54,806 nt of DNA from Lachnospiraceae bacterium (GTDB lineage: Bacteria; Bacillota; Clostridia; Lachnospirales; Lachnospiraceae): assembly GCA_024403455.1 (NCBI GenBank), contig JAKSRR010000020.1:1-54806 (forward strand), written 5' to 3'. Both the position numbers and the translations under genes were made by a program. Shown piece after piece: positions 7,475-44,708 of this stretch. Every line of letters begins with the position of its first letter. Position 1 is the first letter of the stretch. Below the pieces are notes generated by a model. That model worked only from the letters and a program-made list of their open reading frames with translations, searched no databases and was not told the DNA's origin.

Positions 7475-7506
7475 TAGTCCATCCTGGCCTGGGATGGACT
7501 ATTTTT
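7475..7506 (+). terminator. Intrinsic terminator after the SPFH gene
   Basis: A perfect 10-bp stem, TAGTCCATCC (7475-7484) with GGATGGACTA (7492-7501), has a 7-base loop and is followed by five T. Confidence 0.9.
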
Positions 7507-7782: not shown

Positions 7783-8802
7783 ATGGCAAAGTTTATAAAT
7801 GTTGATTCATTACCTAATATTCCTTGGCAGGAGAGACCCGAGGGAATCAAAGGTGCGCCTGTTTGGAGATATACGGAAAATCCGATTATCGATCGCAATC
7901 CGGTAGAAGGCGTTGCCAGGATTTTCAACTCTGCCGTTATGCCCTATGAAGGAAAGTTTATTGGTGTGTTCCGTGGGGAGCAGACCAATGGTGTTCCTTA
8001 CATCTATCTTGGCAGATCAGAAGATGCTATCCACTGGGAATTTGATAAGGAAAAGATTCCCTTTGTAGATGAAGAAGGAAAGCCCTTCATGCCTGTTTAT
8101 GCTTATGATCCTCGTCTTGTTAAGGTGGAGGATACCTACTATATTATCTGGTGCGGAGATTTCTACGGTGCAGCCATTGGTATGGCGAAGACCACAGATT
8201 TCAAGACCTTCACCAGAATTGAGAATCCATTCCTTCCCTTCAATAGAAATGCGGTTCTGTTCCCTCGTAAGATTAACGGAAACTTTGTGCTGTTTAGCCG
8301 TCCTTCCGATTCTGGTCATACACCTTTTGGTGATGTTTTTATCTCTGAAAGCCCTGATCTTACCTATTGGGGTAAGCACAGACACGTTATGAGTCGTGGC
8401 TCTGAGTGGTGGGAGTCTGTGAAGATTGGTGGTGGCGCTGCGCCTATTGAAACGGATGAAGGCTGGCTTTTGTTCTATCATGGTGTATCTGGTACCTGCA
8501 ACGGTTTCGTTTACTCCATTGGTGGTGCAATTTTAGATATTGATAATCCTTCTATTGTGAAGTACCGTTGCACCAACTTCCTTTTAACACCGGAGCAATG
8601 GTATGAGGAAAGAGGCTTTGTGCCGAATGTATGCTTCCCTTGCGCAACGCTGCAGGATAAGGATACTGGACGTATTGCTATTTACTATGGTGCAGCAGAT
8701 AGTTACGTAGGACTTGCTTTTACACAGCTCGACGATATTGTAAAATATATCAAGGAGAACAGTGTTCTGACAGACACTGACACCGAAATCGGTAAAAGAT
8801 AA
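7783..8802 (+). CDS. GH130 glycoside phosphorylase, probable beta-mannoside phosphorylase
   Basis: The 339-residue protein has no signal peptide and is therefore cytoplasmic. It has the five-bladed propeller features of GH130: R-I-F-N-S-A near the start, the catalytic proton donor Asp109 in Y-D-P-R-L, and phosphate-binding-region motifs N-R-N-A-V-L-F-P-R and L-F-S-R-P-S-D. Length and motifs resemble GH130_2 beta-1,4-mannooligosaccharide phosphorylases, though beta-1,2-mannoside or other mannosyl/glucosyl linkages cannot be excluded. It would use inorganic phosphate to release mannose 1-phosphate from imported oligosaccharides. It is the first gene of the twelve-gene transport locus, which suggests it processes what that locus imports. 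Confidence 0.88.
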   Translation: MAKFINVDSLPNIPWQERPEGIKGAPVWRYTENPIIDRNPVEGVARIFNSAVMPYEGKFIGVFRGEQTNGVPYIYLGRSEDAIHWEFDKEKIPFVDEEGKPFMPVYAYDPRLVKVEDTYYIIWCGDFYGAAIGMAKTTDFKTFTRIENPFLPFNRNAVLFPRKINGNFVLFSRPSDSGHTPFGDVFISESPDLTYWGKHRHVMSRGSEWWESVKIGGGAAPIETDEGWLLFYHGVSGTCNGFVYSIGGAILDIDNPSIVKYRCTNFLLTPEQWYEERGFVPNVCFPCATLQDKDTGRIAIYYGAADSYVGLAFTQLDDIVKYIKENSVLTDTDTEIGKR

Positions 8803-8817
8803 GTAAGGAATTGTAAA

Positions 8818-9504
8818 GTGCAGGATATTTTCGGAAGTGAAGGACCCGTTATGGAGTTCTTTAGAAAAACAGGACTCCTTATATTCGCCTCCCTATTGTG
8901 GCTTCTGGGCTCGCTGCCGGTGGTAACACTTGGCGGCAGCTCTGCAGCCCTTTACTATACCGTGGTTAAGAGCATTCGCCATGAAAGAAGTCATGTGCAT
9001 ATTGAGTTCTGGCGGGCTTACAAGCGGAATTTTAAAAATGGAATTTTACTAACTATTATTTATGCATTCCTCGGGTTTATGATATACTTAAACAGAGGGT
9101 TAATTTTAGCAGCATCGGAAGGTAACGCTGAAGTGCTGCAGTCGTATTTTTTGGGGAAAGTTGGGGGAAGTTCTGTAACAGTATTTGTGGTATTGAATGG
9201 TCTAGCCATTGTTCTTCTTGTACTGCTACTCTATTTACTTCCTGTTATGACCAGATTTGAGATGAAACTGTCAGGTTTATTAAAACTGGCATTCTATCTG
9301 GCGATTCGTTATTTTTATTTCACCATTGCAATGTTACTCGGACTAGCTGTGCTGATGTACGGTTTTGTCCGATTTATGCCATTTCCGTGTCTCTTCTTTG
9401 TGCCGGGTATATGGACCTATGCTACTTCCTATTTGGTGGAAAAAGCGATGCGTCCTTATATGGGTGAGCCTAAGGAAGGCGAAGATGCATGGTGGCTTGA
9501 ATAA
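8818..9504 (+). CDS. YesL-like (DUF624) membrane protein
   Basis: The 228-residue polytopic protein has about five hydrophobic segments. Its N-terminal S-L-P-V-V-T-L-G-G-S-S-A-A-L-Y-Y matches the DUF624/YesL signature (L-P-V-x-T-x-G-x-x-x-x-A-L). YesL family genes are regularly found beside carbohydrate ABC importers in Firmicutes; their function is not established. The start is GTG 8818, preceded by AAGGAAT; the gap to GH130 is only 15 bases, so the two are co-transcribed. A paralogue lies at 50520 beside the second importer of this window, which supports a transport-associated role. Confidence 0.85.
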   Translation: MQDIFGSEGPVMEFFRKTGLLIFASLLWLLGSLPVVTLGGSSAALYYTVVKSIRHERSHVHIEFWRAYKRNFKNGILLTIIYAFLGFMIYLNRGLILAASEGNAEVLQSYFLGKVGGSSVTVFVVLNGLAIVLLVLLLYLLPVMTRFEMKLSGLLKLAFYLAIRYFYFTIAMLLGLAVLMYGFVRFMPFPCLFFVPGIWTYATSYLVEKAMRPYMGEPKEGEDAWWLE

Positions 9505-9558
9505 AACATATATCGTATGTGAGTACGTACCTATAAAGTTTTCGGAAGGTGATACTGT

Positions 9559-12500
9559 ATGAGAAAAAGAAACAGGAAAGTAGGAAAGCGTTTCGTAGCT
9601 ACTGCGCTATGCCTGAGCTTAATGAATTCCGTATTTACGGGATCCACAATGCTTGCTTCTGCAGCAGACAGAGAAAGCATGGCGGAAGCATACGAAGAGT
9701 TTATGATGGATCTGACTAGCGATGATTATAGAGATCTCGTCAGCACCTATTCCATTGATTCTTCTATTCCTGATTATAAGGATTATATTAAGACATATCC
9801 TCAGGTATTCCCCACGGATGAGATTGTTATTGGGGGAACGGAGTATAGCCGTTATGAGGATGATGGTCAGGCAGTAACTCCTGTGACCTACAGTGACTTC
9901 GAAGGTGTGGCTGGAGACAGCCTTTTGATGACAGAGTACGCTATGGTAGAGTATGATTTCGATGTAGCAACCTCTGGATATTATGATCTTTCTTTACTAT
10001 ATTATCCTATCGCTGGTAAGAGCAGTACCATCCAGCGTTCTTTCTTTATCGACGGAAAACTTCCCTATGGTGAGATGGCACTTGTTGAGTTTGCCCGTGT
10101 GTGGACCAATGATGTTACTAACACCTATTTAAATGCAGATGGTGTTGTTGTAAAGCAGTGGATGCAGGATAACCAGGGCAATGACTTAAAGCCAGCTTCC
10201 GTTGAAATTCCTGAATGGCAGACTTCTTACTGCCATGATTCCAATGGTTATGTTGTTGATGATTTGAAGATTTATCTTGAGGCAGGGGAGCATACCCTTA
10301 CCTTATTAAGCCAGCGTGAGCCCATGCTGCTTCGTGAGATTAAGTTCTCTAACAGAGAAAAGGCACTTAGCTATGCAGACCAGAAAGCACAGTGGGATGC
10401 AAAGGGATATCAGAATACGGTTGGTCAGGAAGTTCGTATTGAGGCAGAAAATGCAACAAAGACTTCCTCACAGATGCTTTATCCGAAGCAGGATCAGTCT
10501 TCTCCCGCAGTTTACCCCAGCAGCCCTAAGGCGTTATTAAATAATAGTATCGGTGGTACCTCCTGGCAGGAAGCTGGACAGTGGATTGAGTGGGAGTTTG
10601 AGGCACCGAAGGATGGTTACTACAATATTGCTTTCTACGATAAGCAGAACTTCGTTCGTGGTATTTATGTCTCCAGAAAGATTTATATTGATGGAGAGGT
10701 TCCTTTCAGTGAATTAGAGCAGTATGGCTTTAACTATAAGCAGAGCTGGCGTAAGGATGTTCTTTCCGATGAGGAAGGCAATCCTTACAGTTTCTATCTT
10801 GCACAGGGTACTCACACCATTCGTATGGAAGTGGTTCTTGGTGATTTCTCCGAAATCATTGCGACCGTACAGTCTGCGGTACAGGATCTGAACAGCATCT
10901 ATCGTCAGATTATTCGTATCACTGGTGTAGCACCAGATGAATTCCGTGATTATCAGTTAACAACCTCTCTTCCTGGCCTAGAACAGGAATTAATTGATGT
11001 TCGTGCGAAGATTGATTCCGCGATCGTTGCATTACAGACCATCGCTGGAAACAATACCGATAAGACGACAACATTAATCACCATGCGTGACCAGTTAGAC
11101 GAGTTGATTAAAGACCAGGAGCGCTTTACGGAAGTCATCAGCTCTTATAAGGTAAATGTGCGTGCTTGCGGTAACTGGATTACCCAGGTTGTACAGCAGC
11201 CTCTACAGGTGGATAGAATTTATGTATATTCTCCTGAAAATGAGCCTACCATCAAGGGCGCTGGCTGGTGGAGTCGTTTTGTATACGAATTAAAGAGATT
11301 GTTCTACTCTTTCATCGTAGACTATAACCAGATTGGTAACATTGCAGATGAGAATGATGACAATCCTACCATTACTTTATGGATTGGTACCGGTCGTGAC
11401 CAGGCGAATGTTGTAAAGGCTCTGATTGATGAGAACTTTACTCCTAATACGAATATTAACGTCAATGTGCAGTTAGTAGATATGTCGACGCTATTAAAGG
11501 CCGAACTGGCAGGGGAAGGTCCCGACGTGGCCATTCAGGTTGGACCCACCCAGACGGCAACAGGACAGGTTGCGGCCAACATGATTGCAGCGGGAAATGA
11601 TACTCCTGTTAACTATGGTATTCGACATGCCGTTCTGGATCTTACCCAGTTTGCAGATTATGAGCAGGTAGCTACCAGATTTAGCGATAGTGCAACCTTG
11701 CAGTTTACCTATGATGGCTCCACCTATGCACTTCCGGATACCCAGACCTTCTTAATGATGTTCTACAGAAAGGACATTTTAAAGGAAATCGGTATGGAAA
11801 TCCCTAGAACCTGGGATGAAGTAAAGGTTGCCATGACCGTATTAAGTAAGAACCAGATGGAATTTGGTATGTTCCCTGGTGAGCAGATTTTCGCAATGCT
11901 TCTGTTCCAGCAGGGCGGCGATTACTATAAGTATGATGGTAAGGCATCAGATCTTGATTCCGATATTGCAGTAAATGCATTTAAGGATTACTGCGAGTTC
12001 TACACAGACTACAAGCTGGAAAAAGAAACCTCTGTAGAAGAACGATTCAGAACAGGTGAGTGTCCCATCATCATTGCAGATTACACGGTGTTCAATAACT
12101 TAGCAGTATCTGCACCAGATATTGAAGGACTTTGGGATTTCACCGTTGTTCCCGGTATTGAGAATCCTGACGGAAGCATCAACCACGCAACCGGAAGTAC
12201 CGGTCTGGCAGATATGATTATGGCTAGTACCGAATATCCTGATGAAAGCTGGGAGTTCCTGAAGTGGTGGACCAGCGCAGAGACCCAGACATTATTTGGT
12301 CGTGAGATGGAAAGCCTTATGGGCTCTGCAGGACGTGTTGCTACAGCGAACCTAGAGGCTCTTGGCAATCTCTCCTGGAAGGTGGAAGATTACAAGGCGC
12401 TCATGCAGCAGTTTGAGCAGGTACAGGGAATTCCTCAGGTGCCTGGTGGATATTACTCCTGGCGAAACGTAAACAACGCATTCTATACCGTAACTACAGA

Positions 12501-12615
12501 TGCGACCGCAGCAACGCCGAGAGAAGAGCTCATGGAAAAGGTGGAATACATCAACGATGAGATCAACTACAAGCGTGAAGAATTAGGACTTCCATTATTG
12601 GAAGAGGGCGAATAA
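9559..12615 (+). CDS. Secreted CBM-like / family 1 solute-binding fusion protein
   Basis: The 1018-residue protein has a Sec signal peptide (about 1-36, ending A-S-A-A-D) with no lipobox Cys. Two consecutive beta-sandwich modules follow, at about 95-265 and 290-430. Both contain G-Y-Y-D/N-(L/I), a F/Y-I-D-G-(K/E)-(L/V)-P-(Y/F) strand and G-(E/T)-H-T-(L/I) near the end, like CBM6/35-type carbohydrate-binding domains. A helical linker (about 435-545) leads to a complete extracellular solute-binding domain (about 600-1018, L-W-I-G-T-G-R-D ... G-E-G-P-D-V-A ... Y-A-L-P-D-T-Q-T ... T-W-D-E-V). The usual solute-binding protein is about 400-550 residues and lipid-anchored, so both size and anchoring are unusual. 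It lies directly upstream of two permease genes and presumably delivers the bound glycan to them. Confidence 0.85.
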   Translation: MRKRNRKVGKRFVATALCLSLMNSVFTGSTMLASAADRESMAEAYEEFMMDLTSDDYRDLVSTYSIDSSIPDYKDYIKTYPQVFPTDEIVIGGTEYSRYEDDGQAVTPVTYSDFEGVAGDSLLMTEYAMVEYDFDVATSGYYDLSLLYYPIAGKSSTIQRSFFIDGKLPYGEMALVEFARVWTNDVTNTYLNADGVVVKQWMQDNQGNDLKPASVEIPEWQTSYCHDSNGYVVDDLKIYLEAGEHTLTLLSQREPMLLREIKFSNREKALSYADQKAQWDAKGYQNTVGQEVRIEAENATKTSSQMLYPKQDQSSPAVYPSSPKALLNNSIGGTSWQEAGQWIEWEFEAPKDGYYNIAFYDKQNFVRGIYVSRKIYIDGEVPFSELEQYGFNYKQSWRKDVLSDEEGNPYSFYLAQGTHTIRMEVVLGDFSEIIATVQSAVQDLNSIYRQIIRITGVAPDEFRDYQLTTSLPGLEQELIDVRAKIDSAIVALQTIAGNNTDKTTTLITMRDQLDELIKDQERFTEVISSYKVNVRACGNWITQVVQQPLQVDRIYVYSPENEPTIKGAGWWSRFVYELKRLFYSFIVDYNQIGNIADENDDNPTITLWIGTGRDQANVVKALIDENFTPNTNINVNVQLVDMSTLLKAELAGEGPDVAIQVGPTQTATGQVAANMIAAGNDTPVNYGIRHAVLDLTQFADYEQVATRFSDSATLQFTYDGSTYALPDTQTFLMMFYRKDILKEIGMEIPRTWDEVKVAMTVLSKNQMEFGMFPGEQIFAMLLFQQGGDYYKYDGKASDLDSDIAVNAFKDYCEFYTDYKLEKETSVEERFRTGECPIIIADYTVFNNLAVSAPDIEGLWDFTVVPGIENPDGSINHATGSTGLADMIMASTEYPDESWEFLKWWTSAETQTLFGREMESLMGSAGRVATANLEALGNLSWKVEDYKALMQQFEQVQGIPQVPGGYYSWRNVNNAFYTVTTDATAATPREELMEKVEYINDEINYKREELGLPLLEEGE

Positions 12616-12650
12616 AAAACTGGGTGACAGTGGAAAGGAGGAAGTAACTC

Positions 12651-13781
12651 GTGGCAAAAGATGAGAAGAACATCAAAGCGGAAGAAGTAGAGAAGGATAC
12701 GAAGGCTATATTAGAAGAGAAGACCGAAAAGCAGTCTGCTCTTTTAGACCGAGCAGGCGTAGATGCTTTGGAAGCGATGGAGTACTCTGAGAAAACAAAG
12801 AAAGCGATTGCGAAGCTCTCTGAAAAAGAAATTGCAATGGCTAATGAAAAGGGAATGAGCTTAGAAGCTTATGCAGTAGCAAAGAAGCAGGGAACCCTTG
12901 GATACAGATTAAAGAGATCCAGCTGGTCCTATGGAATGATTGCCCCTTACTTCATTCTGTTTTTCTTCTTTACGGTACTTCCTGTAATTATGAGTATCGT
13001 ACTTTCCTTCACATACTTTAATATGTTGGAGTTTCCTACTTGGGTAGGTTGGAGAAACTATATAAAACTGTTCCTGGAAGATGACGTATTCATGGTGGCC
13101 TTAAAGAATACCTTGATTTTCGCCGTTATCACTGGACCAATCAGTTACTTCCTGTGCTTATTATTCGCTTGGATTATCAACGAATTTAAGGGCTGGACCA
13201 GAGCCTTCCTTACCCTGATCTTCTATGCGCCCTCTATCTGTGGTAACGCATACCTGGTATGGAACCTCATTCTTACTGGTGACCGCTATGGTTACTTAAA
13301 TGGTATTTTGCTGAAACTTGGCGTCGTTAATGAAGCCGTTGCATGGTTAAAGACAGAAAAGTTCATTCTTCCCTGTCTGATTGTGGTGCAGCTATGGTTA
13401 TCGCTAGGTACAGGTTTCCTTTCCTTTATTGCAGGACTACAAACGGTGGACAAGAGTCTCTACGAGGCAGCGGCCCTAGATGGGGTTAAGAACCGCTGGC
13501 AGGAATTATGGTATGTCACTTTACCTGCCATGAAGCCCCAGTTGATGTTCGGTGCGGTTATGCAGATTACCCAGTCCTTCGCTGTAGCAGATATTTCGAT
13601 TCAGTTGGCAGGAAATCCTTCTGTTAACTATGCCGGTGCAACGGTTGTAACGCATTTGCTTGACTATGGTTCTACCCGATTTGAAATGGGTTACGCGTCG
13701 GCCATAGCGACAGTGCTGTTCCTCCTCATGATTGGTACCAATAAATTGGTACAGAAAATCTTAAGAAGGGTGGGTGAATAA
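12651..13781 (+). CDS. Carbohydrate ABC transporter permease (MalF type), set A
   Basis: The 376-residue protein has six hydrophobic segments after residue about 95 and the EAA loop (Y-E-A-A-A-L-D-G-V-K-N-R-W) that docks the ATPase. The first 80-90 residues are an unusually long, highly charged, probably helical cytoplasmic extension rich in Glu and Lys. Start GTG 12651 is set by AAAGGAGG. It overlaps the next permease by one base (TAATG). It should form the membrane channel with the 13781 product and receive substrate from the CBM/solute-binding fusion. No ATPase is encoded nearby, so a shared MsmK/UgpC-type ATPase is inferred. Confidence 0.92.
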   Translation: MAKDEKNIKAEEVEKDTKAILEEKTEKQSALLDRAGVDALEAMEYSEKTKKAIAKLSEKEIAMANEKGMSLEAYAVAKKQGTLGYRLKRSSWSYGMIAPYFILFFFFTVLPVIMSIVLSFTYFNMLEFPTWVGWRNYIKLFLEDDVFMVALKNTLIFAVITGPISYFLCLLFAWIINEFKGWTRAFLTLIFYAPSICGNAYLVWNLILTGDRYGYLNGILLKLGVVNEAVAWLKTEKFILPCLIVVQLWLSLGTGFLSFIAGLQTVDKSLYEAAALDGVKNRWQELWYVTLPAMKPQLMFGAVMQITQSFAVADISIQLAGNPSVNYAGATVVTHLLDYGSTRFEMGYASAIATVLFLLMIGTNKLVQKILRRVGE

Positions 13782-14665
13782 TGGCTGAGCAACCTAAGAA
13801 GAAAAAAATTAAACGCGGCAAGCAGAAGCAGTTAAACCGCTCCATGGCTGGTAACGCCCTGCTCTTTGCCTTAATGATTTTCTGCGGTATCTTCATGGTT
13901 TTGCCTCTGGTAATGATCGTGAACAACTGCTTAAAGCCTCTTGATGAGCTTTATCAGTTCCCGCCAAAGATTTTCGTTAGAAACCCAACCCTGGAGAACT
14001 TCTCAGACTTGTTCGTATTAATGAATGATTCCTGGGTACCTTTCTCCAGATATATCTTAAATACCATCATTATTACCGTAGGTGGTATGGTTGGACACGT
14101 TGTGCTTGCTTCCATGGCGGCATATCCTCTGGCAAAGCATAAGTTCCCTGGTAAGAATGTACTGTTCTCCATGGTAGTGCTTTCCATGATGTTCTCCTGG
14201 ACAGTAACCCAGATTCCTCAGTACTTAATCATTTCCTGGCTGGGAATCAACAACACCTATTTGGCACTGGTGCTTCCGGCATGGAGTTTCGGTATGGGTC
14301 TATACCTGATGAAACAGTTCATGGAGCAGCTACCAGATTCGCTTATGGAATCGGCAAGACTAGACGGTGCGGATGAAATGACAATTTTCTGGCGTATCGT
14401 TATGCCGAACGTAAAGCCTGCATGGCTTACCTTGGCAATCTTCCAGTTCCAGCAGATGTGGGCCAACACAGGTTCCCTCTTCCTGCGTGATGAACAGTTA
14501 AAGCCTCTGCAGTTCGCACTGCAGCAGATCACGGCCGGTGGTGTAGCCCGTGCCGGTGCGGCAGCCGCTGTTACCTTCATTATTGCGGCAGTGCCCATTA
14601 CATTCTTCATTATTTGTCAGAAGAATGTCTTAGAGACAATGACCACTTCTGGTATGAAGGATTGA
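13781..14665 (+). CDS. Carbohydrate ABC transporter permease (MalG type), set A
   Basis: The 294-residue protein has six membrane segments and the MalG-type EAA loop (E-S-A-R-L-D-G-A-D-E-M-T-I-F-W-R-I-V-M-P). Its N-terminus is short and basic (K-K-K-K-I-K-R-G-K). It is translationally coupled to the preceding permease through a one-base overlap. Together they form the first of two permease pairs in this locus. Confidence 0.92.
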   Translation: MAEQPKKKKIKRGKQKQLNRSMAGNALLFALMIFCGIFMVLPLVMIVNNCLKPLDELYQFPPKIFVRNPTLENFSDLFVLMNDSWVPFSRYILNTIIITVGGMVGHVVLASMAAYPLAKHKFPGKNVLFSMVVLSMMFSWTVTQIPQYLIISWLGINNTYLALVLPAWSFGMGLYLMKQFMEQLPDSLMESARLDGADEMTIFWRIVMPNVKPAWLTLAIFQFQQMWANTGSLFLRDEQLKPLQFALQQITAGGVARAGAAAAVTFIIAAVPITFFIICQKNVLETMTTSGMKD

Positions 14666-14708
14666 TGATTTTTCGAAAGATATTGAGTAAGAATTTGGAA
14701 GGATGCTT

Positions 14709-16232: not shown

Positions 16233-16250
16233 GTAAAAGGAAAATGATCT

Positions 16251-16883
16251 ATGAAGAAGTACTTTTCTAAAGAAAAATGGAAATATCTCTGGTACACCCT
16301 GTCTCATCCCATGGATGGGTACTACTGGATCAGAAGAAAAGATAAGGGTTCCGTTCCCATTGCATTATTACTGGTGCTGGGATTCTCCCTATGCTTTTCT
16401 TTAAACCGCTATGGTGCCAGCTTTGTAGTAAATGACGTCAACCCTCGTAACGTTAACTCCCTGACAGAGTTATTAGGTGTTGCCCTTCTGTACTTTTTGT
16501 TCTGTGTAGGCAACTGGTCTGTAACCTGTTTGATGAATGGAGAAGGGCGACTAAAGGATATCTGTACGGCGGTGGGGTATGCACTGCTTCCCTTGATTCT
16601 GTGCTATATCCCGGCAACCATCCTAAGCCAGGGCGTGGCGGCAGACGAAGAAGCCTTTTACTTCATTGTCATGGGTGTCGGCATAGCCTGGGGTGCACTG
16701 ATGCTCTTAATGGGCATTATGCAGGTACATAACTACAGTCTAGGAAAGACGATTATTACGTTATTCCTGACATTGCTAGCTGTGTTCATCATTATTTTCT
16801 TAATGTTACTTTTATTAAACCTTATTACACAGGTTTATAACTTCTTCTACAGTATTTATACAGAATTGGTATTTAGAAACTAG
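16251..16883 (+). CDS. YIP1-family-like integral membrane protein
   Basis: The 210-residue protein has a soluble N-terminus containing Y-Y-W-I-R-R-K-D-K-G-S-V and five hydrophobic segments (from about 38 to 205), including a C-D/G-x-x-x-x-Y-A-L-L-P-L-I-L pattern typical of Yip1-domain proteins. Bacterial members have no settled function. It lies 18 bases behind the NHL gene and just ahead of the DUF5696-type gene, so the three are co-expressed and may form one membrane complex. No catalytic residues are evident. Confidence 0.7.
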   Translation: MKKYFSKEKWKYLWYTLSHPMDGYYWIRRKDKGSVPIALLLVLGFSLCFSLNRYGASFVVNDVNPRNVNSLTELLGVALLYFLFCVGNWSVTCLMNGEGRLKDICTAVGYALLPLILCYIPATILSQGVAADEEAFYFIVMGVGIAWGALMLLMGIMQVHNYSLGKTIITLFLTLLAVFIIIFLMLLLLNLITQVYNFFYSIYTELVFRN

Positions 16884-16901
16884 AAAGGCTTGGACTTAAC
16901 A

Positions 16902-19577
16902 TTGAAGAATCCATTTGCGAAAAAGAAGGCAAAAGCATATGTGGATCCCTACAAGGATCGCTATGTGGATGTTCCTAAAAAACAGAAAAAGAAAATGACT
17001 CGCATGGGAAAAATTATTCTCTTTGCGGTGCTTGCTATAGTACTGATTGTGGGCATTTCCTTTGCATATATGACCATTCACTACCGTGGATATAAAGGAT
17101 ACGAGGAGTATCTTTCTTCCTATGGTTATGAGGAGGGAACCACCTTCAAGGCAATTTCTGAAGCATCTGCAGATGTAGAGGGCTTTGTTCTTGCAGCTGA
17201 AAATGAATACCTTAAGTTATATACCAAGCAGGCAACGGCAGAGGTTGCTATCTATGATAAGAGAACAGGTGAAACGACTTACTCTAATCCTCAGGGATGG
17301 GATGAGGACCCTGTAGCGAATCCGACCAACAAGGCACTTCTTCGCAGCCAGTTCGTCATCAAGTATTACAATAGTGCCAGAAATGAATCTACCTTTGATT
17401 CCTATAATGATGCTGTAGCTAAAGGACAGGTTTCAGCAGAGGCAATCAAGGATGGTATTCGTTATAGCTATCGTGTAGGTAATGTTACCAACTCCACTGG
17501 TATCGTTCCTCGTTATATTACGAAGGGTAAGCTTTCTGATGTAACCAGCGAGTTGGAGGATGCGATTGCAGAAAAGGTTGAAGCAAACTTCCAGGAGAGC
17601 GCATCTGTAAAGGGATTCCTCGAACTGGTTCCTGCGGTTATGTATTCTGAAAATGCCATGGCAGATATGAATGTGTGGTTTGAGCAGGCAGGATTTACCG
17701 TAGATGATTATGTAGAGTCTATGACGGATGCAGGTAAGGAGTCCATGCTGCTTCCCAGCTTCAATATTGATGTGGAGTATAGACTGAAAGGGGACAAGCT
17801 AGTTGTTAGCGTTCCTATGTGCTCTTTAGTAGAAGGTGGCGGTGCAAAGATTTATCGTATCCAGCTTCTTACCTACTTTGGTGCGACCACTACAGAAGAT
17901 GAAGGTTATATGCTGGTACCGAATGGTTCCGGTTCCTTGATTACACTGAATAATGGAAAGACAAATGGTGTAGCAGATTACTCCCAGTTCGTTTATGGAC
18001 TGGATCCTGTAGTACAGGACTACACCAAGTTAGAGAATTCTCAGGATGCTAGACTTCCTATCTATGGTGTTCATACCCAGGATAAGGATATGTTTGTGGA
18101 AATCACAGACTCCTCCTCATTAGCGCTCATCACTGCAGCGGTATCTGGAAGATTGAATAGTTACAATTATGCATATCCTACTTTCCTGTTACGAGGCTTT
18201 GATAGACTTGCAATGTTCGGAACCACTGGTAATGAAGCAGATATCCCCATTGTTGAATCCGCCTTCTATGATGTAAATCTGGAGGTGAGCTACAGCTTCC
18301 TTACCAAGGAGAATGCCGGTTATGCAGGTATGGCAAATTACTATAGAGATGAACTCATTGCTAGAGGCGATCTTAACGGAGAACTTCTTCCTGCATCTAC
18401 AGTAGTTCCTTTCTACTATGATGTTATCGGCGCTTACAAAGAGTCCAAGTATTTCCTTGGTGCACAGTATCTTGGTGTAAGCACAGCAACCACCTTCGAT
18501 GAAGCAGCGCAGATGGCAAAGGAATTAGATGCTCTTGGTGTTAAGGGCCAGGTTATGAATTTCCAGGGCTGGATGAACGGCGGTTGGTATCATGATGTTC
18601 CAAACCAGATTCATGTGGTTGGAAAGTTAGGCGGCAGAGGCGGTCTGGCAGATTTAAATGCAACGCTGCAGGAGTTACATGGTAAGTTCTATGGTGATGT
18701 GGCATTCCAGAATGTAACCACCATTTCCAAGAGATATCAGGAAAACTACGAGACCTCCAGATACTATGGTGCAGGCTATGTGGTGAAGCTTGGACAGGTA
18801 AATCCTTCCACCCTTCGTCAGACTGCTTCTCTTGGCTATAAGGAAACAGTACATTATCTTCTTTCTCCGAAGTTCCTAGACAGATATGTAGAGGCTTATG
18901 CAAAGAAGATTGGCAATTATGAGATGGATGGTATTTCTCTTAGAGATTTAGGTGCGCAGCTCCAGTCCGATAAGCGTCGTACCTGTATCATCAACAGAGA
19001 GGAAGCATTGGATATTGTTGAGGCACAGCTTGCTACATTAGAGGAAACTGGCAAGAATCTGATGATTAATAATGCCAATATGTATGCCTTTGCCTATGCA
19101 GATGATTTATTAAATGTACCTACCGAGGATAACAACTTCTATTTAGTGGATATGGAAGTTCCCTTCTATGAAATGCTGGTTCATGGCTACATCAATTACG
19201 GTGGTAAGCTGATGAACACCAATTCTACTGCAGACTTCGCAGTAGATGTACTGCAGCTTATTGAGTGTGGTGCAGCACCTCATTATATCTTTACTTGGGA
19301 AAGTGCAACTGCATTAAAGTACACAGGATTAAATCGTTACTTTGCAACCAAGTTTGAGAACTGGAAGCAGGATGCAGCAGACACCTATCAGACGGTTAGT
19401 GGTGCATTAAATGATGTTACCGGTGCGGCTATGGTGGACCACGAAATCTTAGAGAATAATGTGCGCAAGGTTACGTATAGTAACGGCGTTGTAATTTATA
19501 TTAACTACTCTGAGGAGGCTGTGACAGTGAATGGTATCGTGGTTCCCGCAAAGAGTTATGCGAAAGGAGGTAACTAA
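16902..19577 (+). CDS. Membrane-anchored DUF5696-type protein, glycosidase-like fold suspected
   Basis: The protein of about 891 residues has a basic cytoplasmic N-terminus (K-K-K-A-K ... K-K-Q-K-K-K), one membrane helix (about 35-57) and a large extracellular part. The region about 60-490 is beta-rich. About 495-780 alternates strand and helix like a TIM barrel (V-P-F-Y-Y-D-V-I-G, V-M-N-F-Q-G-W-M-N-G-G-W, D-G-I-S-L-R-D-L-G). The last about 60 residues look like the small beta domain that often closes glycosidases (V-T-Y-S-N-G-V-V-I-Y-I-N-Y). I recognise it as DUF5696-like; a glycoside hydrolase activity is inference. No ATG precedes the membrane helix except inside the basic tail. TTG 16902 is preferred to TTG 16890, which is too close to AAAGG. 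It is followed by permease genes after 2 bases. Confidence 0.7.
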   Translation: MKNPFAKKKAKAYVDPYKDRYVDVPKKQKKKMTRMGKIILFAVLAIVLIVGISFAYMTIHYRGYKGYEEYLSSYGYEEGTTFKAISEASADVEGFVLAAENEYLKLYTKQATAEVAIYDKRTGETTYSNPQGWDEDPVANPTNKALLRSQFVIKYYNSARNESTFDSYNDAVAKGQVSAEAIKDGIRYSYRVGNVTNSTGIVPRYITKGKLSDVTSELEDAIAEKVEANFQESASVKGFLELVPAVMYSENAMADMNVWFEQAGFTVDDYVESMTDAGKESMLLPSFNIDVEYRLKGDKLVVSVPMCSLVEGGGAKIYRIQLLTYFGATTTEDEGYMLVPNGSGSLITLNNGKTNGVADYSQFVYGLDPVVQDYTKLENSQDARLPIYGVHTQDKDMFVEITDSSSLALITAAVSGRLNSYNYAYPTFLLRGFDRLAMFGTTGNEADIPIVESAFYDVNLEVSYSFLTKENAGYAGMANYYRDELIARGDLNGELLPASTVVPFYYDVIGAYKESKYFLGAQYLGVSTATTFDEAAQMAKELDALGVKGQVMNFQGWMNGGWYHDVPNQIHVVGKLGGRGGLADLNATLQELHGKFYGDVAFQNVTTISKRYQENYETSRYYGAGYVVKLGQVNPSTLRQTASLGYKETVHYLLSPKFLDRYVEAYAKKIGNYEMDGISLRDLGAQLQSDKRRTCIINREEALDIVEAQLATLEETGKNLMINNANMYAFAYADDLLNVPTEDNNFYLVDMEVPFYEMLVHGYINYGGKLMNTNSTADFAVDVLQLIECGAAPHYIFTWESATALKYTGLNRYFATKFENWKQDAADTYQTVSGALNDVTGAAMVDHEILENNVRKVTYSNGVVIYINYSEEAVTVNGIVVPAKSYAKGGN

Positions 19578-19579
19578 GC

Positions 19580-20680
19580 ATGTCTAAGGAAAAGACCTCC
19601 GAAGAATTAAAGGTTGAGATGCTGTCCCAGATGGGTACAAAGGCAGATGAACTGGAGATTAAGGAAGAAGAACTGACCGAAAAGCAGAAGGCAAAGAAAG
19701 CTGCACGCTATGAAAGAGAAAAGAAGCGCGAACTAAAGTTTGCTGCAAAGTCTGAAAAGCGTATGGCAAGCGGTCATGGTGGAAAGTCTTCCTTAAATAC
19801 CAAGCGTATGCGTCATGGTTACCTGTTTATCCTTCCCTGGCTGATTGGTTTTGTATTGTTCTACGTAAAGAGTCTTGTACAGACGGTACAGTTCTCCCTG
19901 TCAGATTTGTCTGTGCAGCCTACGGGTGGATATAAGTTAAAGTTTGTTGGTTTTGACAACTTTCTGTATGCATTCCGCGTGGATCCACAGTTTAAGCAGG
20001 TGTTAACATCTTCCATCGGAAACATGTTAATCGACGTTCCGCTGATTATTTTCTTCAGCTTGTTTATGGCACTTTTGTTAAACAAGAAGTTTAAGGGACG
20101 TACCTTAGTAAGAGCGATCTTCTTCCTGCCGGTTATTTTAAATGCGGATGCTATCACTTCTGCAATGGAAATGAGCCGTGCCATGATGACGGGTGGTATC
20201 TCCAGTAGTGCAGCCGAAACTGCTAATGCAGCATCCGGTATTGGCGTGGATTACTACATGAAGCTGCTTTCTGATTTGGCACTTCCCAACAAAGTGCTGG
20301 AATATCTCGCAGGGGCAGTTGAGCGAATTTCGGATATTATTACAGCGTCTGGTGTACAGATCATTATCTTCATTGCAGCGCTACAGTCCATTCCCAGCTC
20401 TATGTATGAGGTAGCAAAGATTGAAGGTGCGACCGGCTATGAAACTTTCTGGAAAGTAACCTTCCCTATGGTAACCCCCCACATCATTACCAACGTGGTT
20501 TATACCGTAGTAGATAGCTTTACGGATAGTAAGGTTGTGGATCTTGCTTATAAGACAGCATTTGATCAGATGAACTATGGTTTATCAGCGGCATTCTCCC
20601 TGATTTCCATGATTATAACGATTCTGATACTTCTCCTGGTGGTGAAGATTATTCAGAAGCGAACCTTCTACTATAACTAA
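19580..20680 (+). CDS. Carbohydrate ABC transporter permease (MalF type), set B
   Basis: The 366-residue protein has membrane segments from about residue 80, an R-H-G-Y-L-F-I-L-P-W start of TM1 and the EAA loop (Y-E-V-A-K-I-E-G-A-T-G-Y-E-T-F-W). An extension of about 78 charged residues precedes TM1 (E-K-Q-K-A-K-K-A-A-R-Y-E-R-E-K-K-R-E). An extra hydrophilic, partly amphipathic stretch lies before the EAA loop (about 195-255). A strong AGGAGG lies before ATG 19580, inside the end of the preceding gene. It would pair with the 20724 product as the second importer of the locus. Confidence 0.9.
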   Translation: MSKEKTSEELKVEMLSQMGTKADELEIKEEELTEKQKAKKAARYEREKKRELKFAAKSEKRMASGHGGKSSLNTKRMRHGYLFILPWLIGFVLFYVKSLVQTVQFSLSDLSVQPTGGYKLKFVGFDNFLYAFRVDPQFKQVLTSSIGNMLIDVPLIIFFSLFMALLLNKKFKGRTLVRAIFFLPVILNADAITSAMEMSRAMMTGGISSSAAETANAASGIGVDYYMKLLSDLALPNKVLEYLAGAVERISDIITASGVQIIIFIAALQSIPSSMYEVAKIEGATGYETFWKVTFPMVTPHIITNVVYTVVDSFTDSKVVDLAYKTAFDQMNYGLSAAFSLISMIITILILLLVVKIIQKRTFYYN

Positions 20681-20723
20681 GCATTTTGAGAAACTCGTGG
20701 CTGATGGCCAGAGAGGACAGTGT

Positions 20724-21737
20724 ATGGCAAAAGAAGTTGTGAAAGAAAAAGAAAAGAAATCTCCCATGAAGAGATGGAAAGAGTATAAAAGCAGTGCTCA
20801 TTATAACAACGATATGAAGGGCCTTGCATCTGGTTCCAAGAATTTCATCGTGAACCTGTTTAAGTTTGCAACGATTATCGGTATCTGCTATGTCATTTTG
20901 GCGCCAGTACTAGGTATCATTGCCAGCTCTTTCTTCAGCAATGCGGATCAGTACAATCCCATGGTTTACATGATTCCACAAAATCCTACCTTCGAGCGTT
21001 ATACCCTTGCTGCAAAGCGTATGTACTACTTTAAGACCTGTGGACTTACCTTGCTGTATTCGTTAACCCTCATGGTGATCCAGGTAGTTATCTGCTCCAT
21101 GGTTGGTTATGGCTTTGCGAGATTCAATTTCCCAGGAAAGAAATTCCTCTTTGCATGTGTCATTATCATGATTGTAGTTCCTACGGACTCCATCATGCTT
21201 CCCCTGTACATGTCATTCAAGAATTTCGACATTTTTGGTATAATTAAAGGAATCAACGGACATGCCATTAACATGATGTCCACCACCACACCAATGTATA
21301 TTTTGACCTTCTTTGCCTGTGGTCTTCGATCTGGCTTGTATATCTATATTTTCAACCAGTTCTTCCGTGGATTACCTAAGGAAATCGAAGAAGCAGCCTT
21401 CGTAGATGGCGCTGGTGTATGGTATACCTACTTTAGAATCATGTTAATCAATGCACTGCCTTCCGTTGTTACTGTAGCAGTATTCTCTATGGTATGGCAG
21501 TACAATGATACCTTCTATTCCAGCTTATTCTTAATGAAGTCGGATGTGATTGTATCGAAGCAGTTGGCAACCCTACAGGCCAACATCGCTAACTTCGATA
21601 AGATTATGGATCCTAGTATCCAGCAGCTGTACGTATCGGCAGGTATTGTATTAATTATGCTTCCCGTAGTACTGATTTACGTATTCCTGCAGAAGTACTT
21701 CATCGAAGGTGTGGAGAGGTCAGGTATTGTAGGTTGA
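20724..21737 (+). CDS. Carbohydrate ABC transporter permease (MalG type), set B
   Basis: The 337-residue protein has six membrane segments and the MalG-type loop (E-E-A-A-F-V-D-G-A-G-V-W-Y-T-Y-F-R-I). A charged N-terminal region of about 50 residues is longer than usual. ATG 20724 has GAGAGGAC upstream and is preferred to GTG 20697. It completes the second permease pair of the locus. The 133 bases that follow lack a terminator-like hairpin. Confidence 0.9.
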   Translation: MAKEVVKEKEKKSPMKRWKEYKSSAHYNNDMKGLASGSKNFIVNLFKFATIIGICYVILAPVLGIIASSFFSNADQYNPMVYMIPQNPTFERYTLAAKRMYYFKTCGLTLLYSLTLMVIQVVICSMVGYGFARFNFPGKKFLFACVIIMIVVPTDSIMLPLYMSFKNFDIFGIIKGINGHAINMMSTTTPMYILTFFACGLRSGLYIYIFNQFFRGLPKEIEEAAFVDGAGVWYTYFRIMLINALPSVVTVAVFSMVWQYNDTFYSSLFLMKSDVIVSKQLATLQANIANFDKIMDPSIQQLYVSAGIVLIMLPVVLIYVFLQKYFIEGVERSGIVG

Positions 21738-21870
21738 GTCGTACGGATTTTTGAGGTAATTATAAGACGAGGGTGGGAGTACAATGATTATGGATGACCT
21801 ACGCTTATAGTTCCTCTGAATCATAAAGGTAAATCCAATTTAAAAAATATAAAAGGAGGAAGAAAAAGAA

Positions 21871-23745
21871 GTGAAAGCAAAGAAATTAGCAGCAGTACTT
21901 CTTTCCGGAGCAATGGTTGTTGGTTCCTTAGCAGGTTGTGGTGCTACTGAGAATACAACACCTGAAACTGACGGTGAGGGTACAGAAACAACTGGTACAG
22001 AAGAAGCTGGTACTGGTGAAACTGAGGTTACTGCACCTGAAGTAGAAGAAGGGGCTAGTATTGATTTTGAAGATGGTTCCTGCAGCTTCGTAGGCAATGA
22101 TATCACCAGTGTTGGTGGTACCAAGAACGCCGCAATTGCAGTAGCTGACTACAACGGATCCAAGGCCTTACAGGTAACTCCCGAAGGCAAGAGTGATGTA
22201 GCATTCCAGATGGACGCACTTCTTGGTGACAACGCAGATAAGGTAGCAAGCATCGATGTTACTATCGGTCTTGAAAGCGCTGATGGAGCATTCCATGCAG
22301 CATCTGGTTCCTTAAATGTTGTTGCTGACGGTGGACAGGTACAGAGCCAGTCTTGGTCTATTTATCTTGAGAATGCTAATCCCAGAACCTTTACCTTAAA
22401 GGTTGATGATGCATCTGTATTCGCAAATGGTGGTAACTTCACCGTTGCACTTTTGGATGATAACCAGGCAAATGATGGTGGTGCTTTTGCTACCTATTAC
22501 ATTGACAATGTAGTATTTAGAGATGCTGATGGCAAGATCTTAGAGGCTGATACCTCTGCAGAGTATGTTAATGCAGCAACCGGTAAGGACATCTCCAACC
22601 TCTTCATGCTTGAGAACGCACAGGAAGTTGGTCAGGGTAACTCCGGTGGCGGTTGGTCACAGGCAGATATCTTCAGTGATGCTGAACTTATCTCCGCAAT
22701 GCAGCCTGGTGATGTACTTGAGATTTCTTACGCATCCGAGACTGGCAACCTCTGGGTTGTTATGAACGCATCAGCCGCAGGCTGGATGCGTGTTGGTGTA
22801 GGTGATTGCGATGGCTCTGGTCAGCAGTATGCATACTACAATAATTCCAGAAATATTATTCAGATTACCTATGAGCAGATTGCAGCAGTATGCGGCGAAG
22901 ATGCTTCTACTTGGGGTGGCAACATCCAGGCTGAGTCTGATGGTGCATGGGAAGTATTCTCTGTAACTCTTGGACAGCAGGGTCAGTATGGTGCATTTAG
23001 CCCCGCAGTTACCTTAGAAGGAAGCTTCTCTGGTGGTGGCTGGTCACAGAGCGGTCCTGATATGAGCGAAGAATTCCTCGCAGCTCTTGTTCCTGGTACA
23101 GCAATTGAAGTAACTTATACTTCTGAGACAGGTGAAATCTGGTTAGTATTCCCTGATTCAGCAGCAGGCTGGATGCGTGTTGGTGTAGGCGACTTTGATG
23201 GTTCCGGTCAGGGTTATGCATCCTTCGATGGAAGCAAGGCTTATATTACCTATGAAACCATCGCTGAGATTCTTGGTGATGATGTAAGTACCTGGGGTGG
23301 CCGCGTACAGTTAGAAGCAACCTCTAATTGGGAAGCATATACTGTAAGTGTTGGAACTATGGCTCCTCTTTATGCAAACAATCATCAGGTTGTTATTGAA
23401 GGAAGCTTCTCTGGTGGTGGTTGGTCACAGGATGGTCCTGAAATGAGTGAGGAGTTCCTTGCAGCACTTGTTCCTGGTAGCGTAATCAACATTTCCTATG
23501 CATCTGAAACAGGTGAAATCTGGTTAGTATTCCCTGATTCAGCAGCAGGCTGGATGCGTGTTGGTGTAGGCGACTTTGATGGTTCCGGTCAGGGTTATGC
23601 AACCTGCACTGGCAACTATGCACAGATTACCTATGAAACCATCGCTGAAATTCTTGGTGATGATGTAAGCGCTTGGGGTGGCCGCGTACAGTTCGAGGCA
23701 ACTTCTAACTGGGAAGCTTACAGCATTTCTGTAGGACAGAGATAA
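21871..23745 (+). CDS. Lipoprotein with CBM-like domain and three tandem repeat modules
   Basis: The 624-residue protein has a lipoprotein signal peptide (lipobox L-A-G-C, Cys23) and a Thr/Glu/Gly-rich linker (about 25-60). A beta-sandwich module follows (about 62-215; D-F-E-D-G, Y-Y-I-D-N-V-V-F), as in CBM4/9/22-type domains. Then come three copies of a module of about 125 residues, beginning near 255, 383 and 510. Each carries S-G-G-G-W-S-Q, Y-A/T-S-E-T-G, A-A-G-W-M-R-V-G-V-G-D and a closing W-G-G. Copies 2 and 3 are spaced exactly 381 bases apart and are largely identical in DNA. GTG 21871 follows AAAGGAGGA. It is likely a surface glycan-binding protein serving the adjacent importer; ligand unknown. 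Confidence 0.75.
   Translation: MKAKKLAAVLLSGAMVVGSLAGCGATENTTPETDGEGTETTGTEEAGTGETEVTAPEVEEGASIDFEDGSCSFVGNDITSVGGTKNAAIAVADYNGSKALQVTPEGKSDVAFQMDALLGDNADKVASIDVTIGLESADGAFHAASGSLNVVADGGQVQSQSWSIYLENANPRTFTLKVDDASVFANGGNFTVALLDDNQANDGGAFATYYIDNVVFRDADGKILEADTSAEYVNAATGKDISNLFMLENAQEVGQGNSGGGWSQADIFSDAELISAMQPGDVLEISYASETGNLWVVMNASAAGWMRVGVGDCDGSGQQYAYYNNSRNIIQITYEQIAAVCGEDASTWGGNIQAESDGAWEVFSVTLGQQGQYGAFSPAVTLEGSFSGGGWSQSGPDMSEEFLAALVPGTAIEVTYTSETGEIWLVFPDSAAGWMRVGVGDFDGSGQGYASFDGSKAYITYETIAEILGDDVSTWGGRVQLEATSNWEAYTVSVGTMAPLYANNHQVVIEGSFSGGGWSQDGPEMSEEFLAALVPGSVINISYASETGEIWLVFPDSAAGWMRVGVGDFDGSGQGYATCTGNYAQITYETIAEILGDDVSAWGGRVQFEATSNWEAYSISVGQR
23017..23745 (+). repeat. Tandem intragenic repeat, 381-base unit
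   Basis: The second copy begins at 23398, exactly 381 bases (127 codons) after the first at 23017; both open with GAAGGAAGCTTCTC. Long stretches are identical, for example the two copies coding for E-I-W-L-V-F-P-D-S-A-A-G-W-M-R. An older, more diverged copy precedes them (from about 22630). The identity at silent positions points to a recent duplication or gene conversion. Confidence 0.85.
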
Positions 23746-23758
23746 TTAAAAAACAAAT

Positions 23759-23782
23759 CGTCAGAGCCTGCGGGCTCTGACG
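23759..23782 (+). promoter_or_regulatory. Strong intercistronic stem-loop without T-run
   Basis: A perfect 10-bp stem, CGTCAGAGCC (23759-23768) with GGCTCTGACG (23773-23782), closes a TGCG loop and is followed by TAAATAAAAAAT. It lies between the repeat lipoprotein and solute-binding genes. It is more likely an mRNA-stabilising or processing element than a terminator. Confidence 0.7.
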
Positions 23783-23810
23783 TAAATAAAAAATCTAATG
23801 GAGGAAAATC

Positions 23811-25298
23811 ATGAAAGCAAAAAGAATTGCAGCTTTTGGTTTAGCAGCAGTAACTGCAATGTCCATGGTAGCTTGTGGTGGTAATGGTGATGGAAACAGC
23901 ACCTCCGGTAACGGTGGCGATACCGCAGCAAATCAGGGACACAACGACGTTATTAATATTGGTACTTGGTGGGAACAGCACTATGATAGTGGAGATACCA
24001 GCTTAGAAGATTCTGATGACTACGCAGTAGCACAGAACAGTGCAGCAAGCGATGATCCTGCAAAGAAGGCAGAAGGTGAGTTCAACCTTATGGTTGCTCA
24101 GAAGAAGTGGGACGCATTAAAGGCTGTTGAAGAAACTTACAACACCAAGATTTATTGGCAGAACTTAACCTATGAAGGTGTTAAGGATTCCATCAATACC
24201 TCCATTCTTGCAGGTGCTCCTGACTGCCAGATCTATCTTGCTGATACCAGCATGGCAGTACCCGCACAGATGAATGGTCTTGCAGTAGACTTAAAGACCA
24301 TCCTTCCTGCAGATCACGATATCTTTACCTCCAAGATTAACGTAGGTTATCTTGATCTTGGCGATGGTAAGGCTTGCATCTTCTACAGAAATGGTGGTGA
24401 AGGCACCGTTGCAGGTACCTATCCTTTAGGCTTCAACTTACAGATGCTTGAGGCAAACAACCTTGAAGATCCTCGTGATCTTTGGGAAAAGGGCGAGTGG
24501 ACTTGGGATAAGTTCAATGAGTATTGCCAGATTCTTACCCAGGATACCGATGGTGATGGTGTTATCGATCAGTATGGTTATACTGGTTTCAAGAACGAAA
24601 CACTTGGCGAGCTTATGATGTCCAATGGTGCTACCATTGCAGTTCCTGGTTCTCCCGAGGGACTTTCCTCTGCAGCAACTGGTGAAGCTCTTCAGGAAAT
24701 GTATGATCTTTACAATACCTACAATGTTTGCGCTCCTTATGATAATGAGGCTGATGCAAACGCAACCAGAACTGAGTATGCAAACGGTAATATCGGTTTC
24801 TTCCCTTGCGCAGCATGGATTCAGGATACCTCTGGAGACTATGACTGGATGGGACAGAACGGCGGTCCTAAGCTTGATTGGGATGTTTGCTACGTAAGAT
24901 GGCCAGTTGGTCCTTCCGGTAACAAGGATACCAACGCTGGTAAGAACGCAACTACTTCCAGTGAGTTCTATATCATTCCTGTTGGTGTACAGAACCCTGC
25001 TGAAATCTTCAATGCAATCTACGATATGTGGAACTGGTATGATCTTGATACCACCGTTCGTGATGACAAGAGTGCTCTTAACTGGTGGTATTCCGTTACC
25101 TCCGCTAAGCCTGAGCTTCAGCAGAAGAACTTCGACGTAATGAACGATTGCGGTACCAAGACTGTACTTGACTTCTGGCAGAGTGTTGGTGTTGAATATG
25201 ACCTTTATGACATCATTACTGGTGAGAAGACTCCTGCACAGTTCCAGGAGACCTACAAGAATCCTTTCCAGGATGGTCTTGATGCATACTTCAACTAA
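23811..25298 (+). CDS. Family 1 extracellular solute-binding lipoprotein
   Basis: The 495-residue protein has a lipoprotein signal peptide (M-V-A-C-G, Cys22), a Gly/Asn/Ser-rich linker and a solute-binding fold with I-N-I-G-T-W-W at the first strand. A Ca2+-loop-like D-T-D-G-D-G-V-I-D occurs near residue 245, as in many large sugar-binding proteins. Many Trp/Tyr residues in the C-terminal half suit oligosaccharide stacking. GGAGG precedes the ATG. It is the last gene of the locus and most likely serves permease set B. The hairpin upstream and terminator downstream could let it accumulate above the permeases. Confidence 0.9.
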   Translation: MKAKRIAAFGLAAVTAMSMVACGGNGDGNSTSGNGGDTAANQGHNDVINIGTWWEQHYDSGDTSLEDSDDYAVAQNSAASDDPAKKAEGEFNLMVAQKKWDALKAVEETYNTKIYWQNLTYEGVKDSINTSILAGAPDCQIYLADTSMAVPAQMNGLAVDLKTILPADHDIFTSKINVGYLDLGDGKACIFYRNGGEGTVAGTYPLGFNLQMLEANNLEDPRDLWEKGEWTWDKFNEYCQILTQDTDGDGVIDQYGYTGFKNETLGELMMSNGATIAVPGSPEGLSSAATGEALQEMYDLYNTYNVCAPYDNEADANATRTEYANGNIGFFPCAAWIQDTSGDYDWMGQNGGPKLDWDVCYVRWPVGPSGNKDTNAGKNATTSSEFYIIPVGVQNPAEIFNAIYDMWNWYDLDTTVRDDKSALNWWYSVTSAKPELQQKNFDVMNDCGTKTVLDFWQSVGVEYDLYDIITGEKTPAQFQETYKNPFQDGLDAYFN

Positions 25299-25332
25299 TT
25301 ATTGTTGAAAAGCAAATTAAATCACTAGATTG

Positions 25333-25363
25333 GCCCCATGCCCGAAAGGGTATGGGGCTTTTT
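25333..25363 (+). terminator. Intrinsic terminator closing the glycan locus
   Basis: GCCCCATGCCC (25333-25343) pairs with GGGTATGGGGC (25348-25358) through 11 bp with one G-T pair and a GAAA tetraloop, followed by five T. Confidence 0.95.
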
Positions 25364-44706: not shown

Positions 44707-44708
44707 AT

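Follow-up and report, generated by a model that had tools for sequence, protein, structure and literature searches.

Gene organization of the locus

The window analyzed here, a 54,806-nucleotide stretch of contig JAKSRR010000020.1 (positions 1 to 54,806, forward strand) from a Lachnospiraceae bacterium (assembly GCA_024403455.1; 2.23 Mb in 35 contigs, 82% complete), carries twelve + strand open reading frames (ORFs) at 7783-25298, among them two MalF/MalG-type permease pairs and, between the pairs, genes for an NHL, a YIP1 and a DUF5696 protein. The ORF check recovered the twelve genes in the order given by the original prediction, which was made from the sequence alone, and the tight spacing it described holds, with successive gaps of 15, 54, 35, -1, 37, 18, 6, 2, 16, 133 and 65 bases. 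Pfam supports 11 of the 12 genes, the exception being the last, and backs the assignments GH130, DUF624 (YesL/MusI-like), two BPD_transp_1 pairs, Yip1 and DUF5696.

Eight of the genes are divided here into two modules. Module A is composed of a large solute-binding protein (SBP; 1018 residues, secreted; 9559-12615; PF01547, 1.5e-20 at residues 619-910) and the permeases MalF1 (12651-13781) and MalG1 (13781-14665; both PF00528). Module B is composed of an NHL β-propeller protein with a TPR-like region and a predicted C-terminal membrane helix (14703-16232; PF01436, 2e-12), a YIP1 membrane protein with five hydrophobic segments by hydropathy (16251-16883; PF04893, 8e-14), a DUF5696 protein with a predicted N-terminal membrane anchor and a GH129/GH101-like domain (16890-19577; PF18952, 4e-185), and the permeases MalF2 (19580-20680; PF00528, 6e-10) and MalG2 (20697-21737; PF00528, 1e-12). 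The four BPD_transp_1 matches range from 3e-9 to 1e-14. The MalF1 frame measures 376 residues vs 300-340 in many homologues, and its start codon may lie further in.

The remaining genes flank the modules. GH130, similar to β-1,4-mannooligosaccharide phosphorylases (7783-8802; PF04041, 5e-71), lies outside the conserved core and would relate to locus-specific cargo. It is followed by an accessory DUF624 membrane protein of the YesL-MusI type (8818-9504; PF04854, 3e-17), whose match to NCBIfam NF052431 (MusI_fam) is below the cut-off. On the 3' side, the triple-repeat lipoprotein of the original prediction contains three CBM65_1 stretches (21871-23745; PF18259, 2e-54; lipobox LAGC by reading) and is an accessory found in part of the loci. 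The last gene encodes SBP2, a solute-binding lipoprotein (23811-25298; lipobox by reading) with no Pfam match at E 1.

Conservation of the eight-gene block

The core order, large SBP-MalF1-MalG1-NHL-YIP1-DUF5696-MalF2-MalG2, is unbroken in 72 of 94 DUF5696 loci taken from named genomes (38 loci), relatives, plasmids of Butyrivibrio fibrisolvens and Paenibacillus cellulosilyticus, and a phylum-wide sample (20 places fetched). Seventeen further loci lie close to the edge of the stretch read, 15 of them edge-limited and two (L110, L114) truly without an adjacent first half. The other five deviate: L095 is split, L098 is irregular with no recognized large SBP, L115 holds the second half only, and L123 and L124 have the halves swapped. 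The block spans Lachnospiraceae to Paenibacillus, with DUF5696 matches over the cut-off in 26 of the 299 phylum-wide genomes, from 11 families; judged by DUF5696, most of the closest named records are Lachnospiraceae. Every pair of the 94 DUF5696 proteins falls short of 99.5% identity; clustering yields 90 groups at 98% and 42 at 70%, and identity to the window copy drops to 21% with the order still kept. Judged by comparison of the 94 loci, the gene order is conserved beyond chance.

Within the block, DUF5696 is closely bounded on both sides. MalF2 is the next core gene 3' of DUF5696 in 91/91 testable loci, at most 60 bases away in 87, and MalG2 follows within two core genes in 89/89. On the 5' side, YIP1 or an NHL-YIP1 fusion is the preceding core gene in 89 of 90 loci, at most 60 bases away in 80. 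Median gaps are -1 base for DUF5696/MalF2 and 13 bases for YIP1/DUF5696; adjacency was counted over core families from all-ORF searches, and a small unlabelled ORF may intervene. NHL and YIP1 form a single polypeptide in 14 of the 94 loci (Pfam-checked in two), and such fusions turn up in 13 of the 42 groups defined by 70% DUF5696 identity. Over the broad set, median distances among the eight core proteins are lowest for MalF1 (0.67) and MalG1 (0.74), reach 1.51 for YIP1 and are highest for DUF5696 (1.76).

Some loci carry oversize proteins, namely NHL proteins of 911-919 residues (L057:6433-9168, L059:6461-9220) and a large SBP of 1482 residues (L054:1137-5585), which indicates that extra sequence was added there. 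The genus of genome G000 contains two divergent block versions with large-SBP scores of ~1700 vs ~1020 (L079-L084, L086, L087 and L089-L092 vs L072-L077, L085, L088, L093 and L094); fragments aside, each block-bearing genome there gives one copy in the large-SBP search, and no genome gives both versions.

Co-occurrence and modularity

Among 98 related genomes, one and the same set of 30 contains near-full-length DUF5696, YIP1 and the full-length NHL protein, and none of the others has any of the three in that form; 23 of the 30 belong to the window's own genus, which contributes 35 genomes to the set. Since the 98 genomes are mutually related, they do not amount to 98 independent tests. Further genomes contain matches to DUF5696, and to NHL or TPR stretches, that are shorter or weaker; of such DUF5696 matches the single case inspected, from G000, proved to be an α-amylase. 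The large SBP is present in all 30 and in one more genome, G024, on a contig that stops after MalG1. Together with the constant neighbours of DUF5696, this co-occurrence supports the proposal that the NHL, YIP1 and DUF5696 genes are no passengers. Homologues of the three genes, far from lying mostly apart from importers, are found beside them in the neighbourhood comparison.

In most cases the two modules are found together. Module A stands alone at L138, L141, L146 and L148 and module B alone at L110, L114 and L115, all in phylum-wide genomes, and both lone modules are present in one genome twice (L110 and L141 in G159; L115 and L138 in G137). G097, from the window's order, has a split copy (L127/L095) beside a complete one (L099). 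The lone modules indicate that NHL, YIP1 and DUF5696 are most tightly tied to MalF2-MalG2. In its original form, the proposal that both pairs belong to one assembly is not supported, since the modules also occur as separate loci.

Coevolution by distance correlation was also tried and rejected. A first run seemed to split core from accessory genes; on matched loci the correlations of SBP2 and YesL equal those within the core, so the method is not used as evidence. Only CBM65 is lower there, at 0.45 vs 0.66.

DUF5696 resembles GH129-type glycosidases

The AlphaFold2 model of DUF5696 (pLDDT 75, pTM 0.75) is composed of a membrane helix, a β-rich region, a TIM barrel and a C-terminal β domain. 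Its top Foldseek match is the GH129-like 3,6-anhydrogalactosidase DagB (5opq; 6e-28, TMt 0.68), and it also matches the GH129 enzyme NagBb (5wzn; 1e-20, TMt 0.69) and further enzymes of families GH101, GH36, GH13 and GH31. A profile of 41 diverse DUF5696 members, searched against the PDB, recovers DagB (8rzg, 7.6e-14) and NagBb (5wzn, 2.9e-11); a narrower profile does not recover DagB or NagBb (0.42). The comparison by hhalign with a GH101-related protein at L135 gives 5e-6 (probability 86), and that with the plain GH101 protein of L131 is not significant (0.099). The L135 protein (L135:40-2688) measures 883 residues, and its genome, G179, also carries several DUF5696 copies. A tblastn search of plasmids with a DagB fragment gave no match. 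On profile and model comparison, DUF5696 is a remote homologue of GH129-type glycosidases with the same predicted fold, and it is predicted to be membrane-anchored, an N-terminal transmembrane-like segment being found in 87 of 91 homologues.

Over 93 DUF5696 members, Gly348 (93), Asp372 (91), Arg703 (91) and Asn730 (85) are kept, as are, to varying extents, Asp754 (85), Asp694 (82) and Asp686 (71). The catalytic pair of GH101/129 is not constant in these sequences, where the alignment to GH101/129 is weak: at the strand end bearing the acid/base Glu, DUF5696 has Asn730 and no conserved Glu or Asp, and the region equivalent to the nucleophile varies. Catalysis has likely been lost, to judge from these positions; the weak alignment near the catalytic region makes them indecisive. 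According to PMC5698469, Asp435 of NagBb is the one catalytic residue conserved in DagB, as Asp486, and DagB is inactivated by changing Asp202, Asp486, Glu517 or Glu531. DUF5696 shares with GH129 and GH129-like enzymes (NagBb, 5wzn; DagB/ZGAL_3152, 5opq) and with GH101 the β-rich region, TIM barrel, C-terminal β domain and profile similarity, and differs from them in its predicted membrane anchor, its constant permease neighbour and the apparent absence of a constant catalytic pair.

Scaffold, binding proteins and permeases

The NHL profile matches solved NHL and TPR structures, with a PknD domain among the NHL relatives. The predicted NHL-TPR-membrane architecture holds for the NHL repeats in Pfam; the TPR match is weak there (0.016), though TPR structures are recovered by the profile. 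A C-terminal transmembrane-like segment is present in 58 of 59 unfused NHL homologues of 450-640 residues. YIP1 gives no informative match to solved structures, the best being a designed protein at 0.0042.

The large SBP had been described as a fusion of a carbohydrate-binding module with a solute-binding protein. Pfam supports the SBP_bac_1 part and does not identify the module; the AlphaFold2 model (pLDDT 69, pTM 0.50) gives two β-sandwich regions, a helical stalk and a MalE-like C-terminal part, which resembles MalE-type proteins in Foldseek. The N-terminal half is likewise conserved in relatives. By eye, the protein carries a signal peptide of the AxA type and lacks a lipobox. Among homologues, a crude motif that missed some evident lipoboxes picked out lipobox-like sequences in 5 of 80 large SBPs, 42 of 67 SBP2 proteins and 25 of 40 CBM65 proteins. 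SBP2 resembles the arabino-oligosaccharide-binding protein 6rjy (phmmer, 6e-13); the CBM65 protein matches nothing among solved structures at 0.01.

In the general picture, an ATP-binding cassette (ABC) sugar importer combines a binding protein with two permeases and an ATPase. CUT1-type systems include MalEFGK2 and MusEFGK2I, the latter with a DUF624 partner; a shared MsmX-type ATPase also occurs, and CUT1 importers of Gram-positives commonly have no ATPase in their own locus. An EAA-type coupling loop is readable in all four permease family consensus sequences. Pfam finds no ATPase among the twelve genes, and one MalK-type (OB_MalK) ATPase is encoded elsewhere in the 82% complete genome, on contig C12. 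The block thus has in common with CUT1-type importers the MalF/MalG proteins with EAA-type loops, solute-binding proteins, a DUF624 partner and the lack of its own ATPase; it is unlike them in its two permease pairs, its constant NHL-TPR-transmembrane, YIP1 and DUF5696 proteins and its stalked binding protein of 1000 residues.

Neighbouring enzymes and candidate cargo

In phmmer, GH130 is closest to TM1225 ('conserved hypothetical', 8e-144), followed by 5ayd (5e-118) and UhgbMP (4udg, 1e-114); its closest characterized solved relatives are β-1,4-mannooligosaccharide phosphorylases. A GH3 gene lies ~1.9 kb 5' of the locus. No regulator gene was identified beside the window copy among the neighbouring ORFs scanned.

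The neighbour survey covered same-strand neighbours of at least 200 residues, with matches listed for the best 25 of 42 and the best 25 of 109 families. A single-linkage BLAST cluster of neighbours from 33 loci includes GH26 with CBM35 (one member Pfam-checked). Among the matches listed, the 47 neighbours of 18 window-type loci include GH26 (10), GDSL esterase (7), GH5 (5), LacI (5) and mannose-6-phosphate isomerase (2), a set that gives a picture of acetylated β-mannan use. The 28 neighbours of the second block version in the genus include, again among the matches listed, FtsX (4), Biotin_lipoyl_2 (4), GH5 (2) and GH10 (2). For distant loci, 79 of the 107 listed neighbours yield GH26 (4), alginate lyase (3), GH43 (3), luciferase-like monooxygenase (3), GH10 (2), pectate lyase (1) and chondroitinase B (1) among the matches listed.

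With neighbours as varied as GH26, GH5, GH10, GH43, alginate lyases and pectate lyases, the block has the look of a general device for glycan import. The tie to β-mannosides drawn in the original prediction is not supported for the block at large, which GH10 xylanase, GH43, alginate lyase and pectate lyase families also adjoin; a mannan-only reading of the machine is rejected in view of these neighbours and is kept as likely for the window copy, on the strength of the GH130 relatives. On the Paenibacillus cellulosilyticus plasmid (L071), the block has several luciferase-like monooxygenases around it, together with a reductase and additional binding proteins, surroundings that hint at a non-glycan or modified-sugar cargo.

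Proposed mechanism and alternatives

As a whole, the data are best explained, at about even chances, by an oligosaccharide-import machine with two MalFG-type pairs, DUF5696 on a scaffold, a shared ATPase and mannan cargo. The conserved eight-gene block would constitute this dedicated machine. Secreted endo-enzymes would release glycan chains; the propeller-TPR ectodomain and the YIP1 membrane domain would form a scaffold next to MalF2-MalG2, on which DUF5696 would hold, and perhaps trim, the released chains. The large stalked SBP would deliver to MalF1-MalG1 and the lipoprotein SBP2 to MalF2-MalG2, with both permease pairs using a shared MsmX-type ATPase encoded elsewhere. The cargo in this window would most likely be β-1,4-manno- or glucomanno-oligosaccharides, which GH130 would cleave inside the cell after import. 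The sequence-based footing of this explanation is gene linkage, the NHL-YIP1 fusion, predicted topology and the remote homology of DUF5696; from it we infer the single physical assembly, glycan handling by DUF5696, the SBP-permease assignment, the shared ATPase and the substrate. Further-reaching, and unlikely, is the idea that the block represents a distinct class of Gram-positive glycan-uptake machine, a single-membrane counterpart of SusCD in which a membrane-tethered DUF5696 pseudo-glycosidase on the propeller-TPR-YIP1 scaffold passes long wall-derived chains to both permease pairs, which would act jointly on one chain.

Several observations weigh against an import machine of this kind. 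GH130 scores below the NCBIfam equivalog cut-offs, no endo-mannanase or GH26 adjoins the block in this window, and CBM65 modules are binders of β-glucan and xyloglucan. The FtsX, Biotin_lipoyl_2 and Paenibacillus luciferase-like monooxygenase neighbours have no clear glycan link. A single genus supplies most of the co-occurrence (23 of the 30 genomes), the lone modules suggest that coupling of the two permease pairs may be loose, and on matched loci the median correlations do not set the core apart (core-core and core-SBP2 both 0.91; core-YesL 0.83 vs 0.84).

A first alternative, which we regard as possible but not probable, is that two ordinary importers for related sugars stand side by side, with NHL, YIP1 and DUF5696 serving the second only and the first kept near by shared regulation. 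The loci with module A or module B alone, the split halves L127/L095 in a genome that also has the complete L099, and the tightest linkage of DUF5696, which is to MalF2, fit such an arrangement; it is opposed by the restriction of the large SBP, among the 98 relatives, to the 30 DUF5696 genomes and the one whose contig is broken after MalG1, and by the joint order kept in 72 of 94 loci. Far less credence is due to the idea that the genes lack a joint function and owe their order to chance or recent transfer, which we consider next to negligible: it is contradicted by the adjacency and order counts, by an order kept with DUF5696 identity down to 21% and over 42 clusters at 70%, and by the NHL-YIP1 fusions.

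The other alternatives concern what the three proteins do. DUF5696 could be an active exo-glycosidase, trimming chains on the membrane immediately before import, with NHL-YIP1 merely anchoring it. The GH129/GH101/GH36-like fold of the model, the remote homology to DagB and NagBb and the retention of Asp686, Asp694 and Asp754 speak for such an enzyme; Asn730 near the acid/base position, with no conserved Glu or Asp, and the inconstant nucleophile-equivalent region speak against it, indecisively given the weak alignment, and overall it seems rather doubtful. That NHL, YIP1 and DUF5696 sense glycans and gate the importer or signal to it, with no cargo handling, would suit the PknD domain among the solved NHL relatives and the predicted linkage of an extracellular propeller to a polytopic membrane protein. 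Against it, kinase, sigma and anti-sigma domains are absent from the three proteins by Pfam, and LacI-type regulators adjoin some loci; a sensor is quite improbable.

Transcription signals and surroundings

The predicted terminator at 25333 is confirmed as the strongest of the scan (25332-25359, + strand; 12 pairs, -25.5 kcal/mol, z -4.6); region-wide, terminator-like sites are as frequent as in shuffles (15 vs 15.1). A second hairpin, between the CBM65 and SBP2 genes (23759-23782, + strand; 10 pairs, -20.3 kcal/mol, z -5.2), has no T tract on the + strand and may stabilize or process the mRNA, shifting SBP2 dosage. A promoter-like site with 10/12 matches lies at 7699-7726, and such sites are no commoner region-wide than in shuffles (33 vs 41.0, sd 7.1). 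An additional promoter could lie in the 133-base gap 5' of the CBM65 gene, so a single transcript is putative only.

Immediately 5' of the locus, a Band 7/SPFH (stomatin-like) gene (6517-7443) is followed by a hairpin and then TTTTT on the + strand at ~7475-7506, read by eye in a region where the scan lists the - strand only. In the GH3 protein (3130-5877), the C-terminal domain precedes the N-terminal domain, with an Fn3-like domain between them. A second sugar locus of the window (42526-49166) comprises a maltodextrin-glucosidase-like GH13, a protein without an NCBIfam match and a MalF/UgpA-like permease, with one more ORF at the MalG position.

Relation to known systems and significance

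Within the open-access PubMed Central (PMC) literature searched, DUF5696 is not mentioned and 'YIP1 family' together with 'carbohydrate ABC transporter permease' returns nothing. No account of such a block was found there. The block is real, conserved and, within that literature, undescribed. The Gram-positive β-glucan and β-mannan loci of PMC10318527 and PMC13278490 have in common with the window an importer and a phosphorylase or GH130; the likeness extends to the GH26, GH5, esterase and LacI genes alongside relatives of the window locus. The Blautia producta β-glucan locus has one ABC transporter (PMC10318527), in contrast to the two permease pairs of the block, and NHL and YIP1 are absent from the main texts of the β-glucan (PMC10318527) and Bacillota mannan (PMC13278490) papers.

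If the proposed import machine is correct, gut and soil bacteria would possess in this block a new architecture for uptake, shared by many families of a phylum and reused with different fibre-degrading enzymes. This would provide functions for DUF5696 and for NHL and YIP1 proteins of the kind seen here in bacteria, and the block could serve annotation pipelines as a marker of polysaccharide loci.

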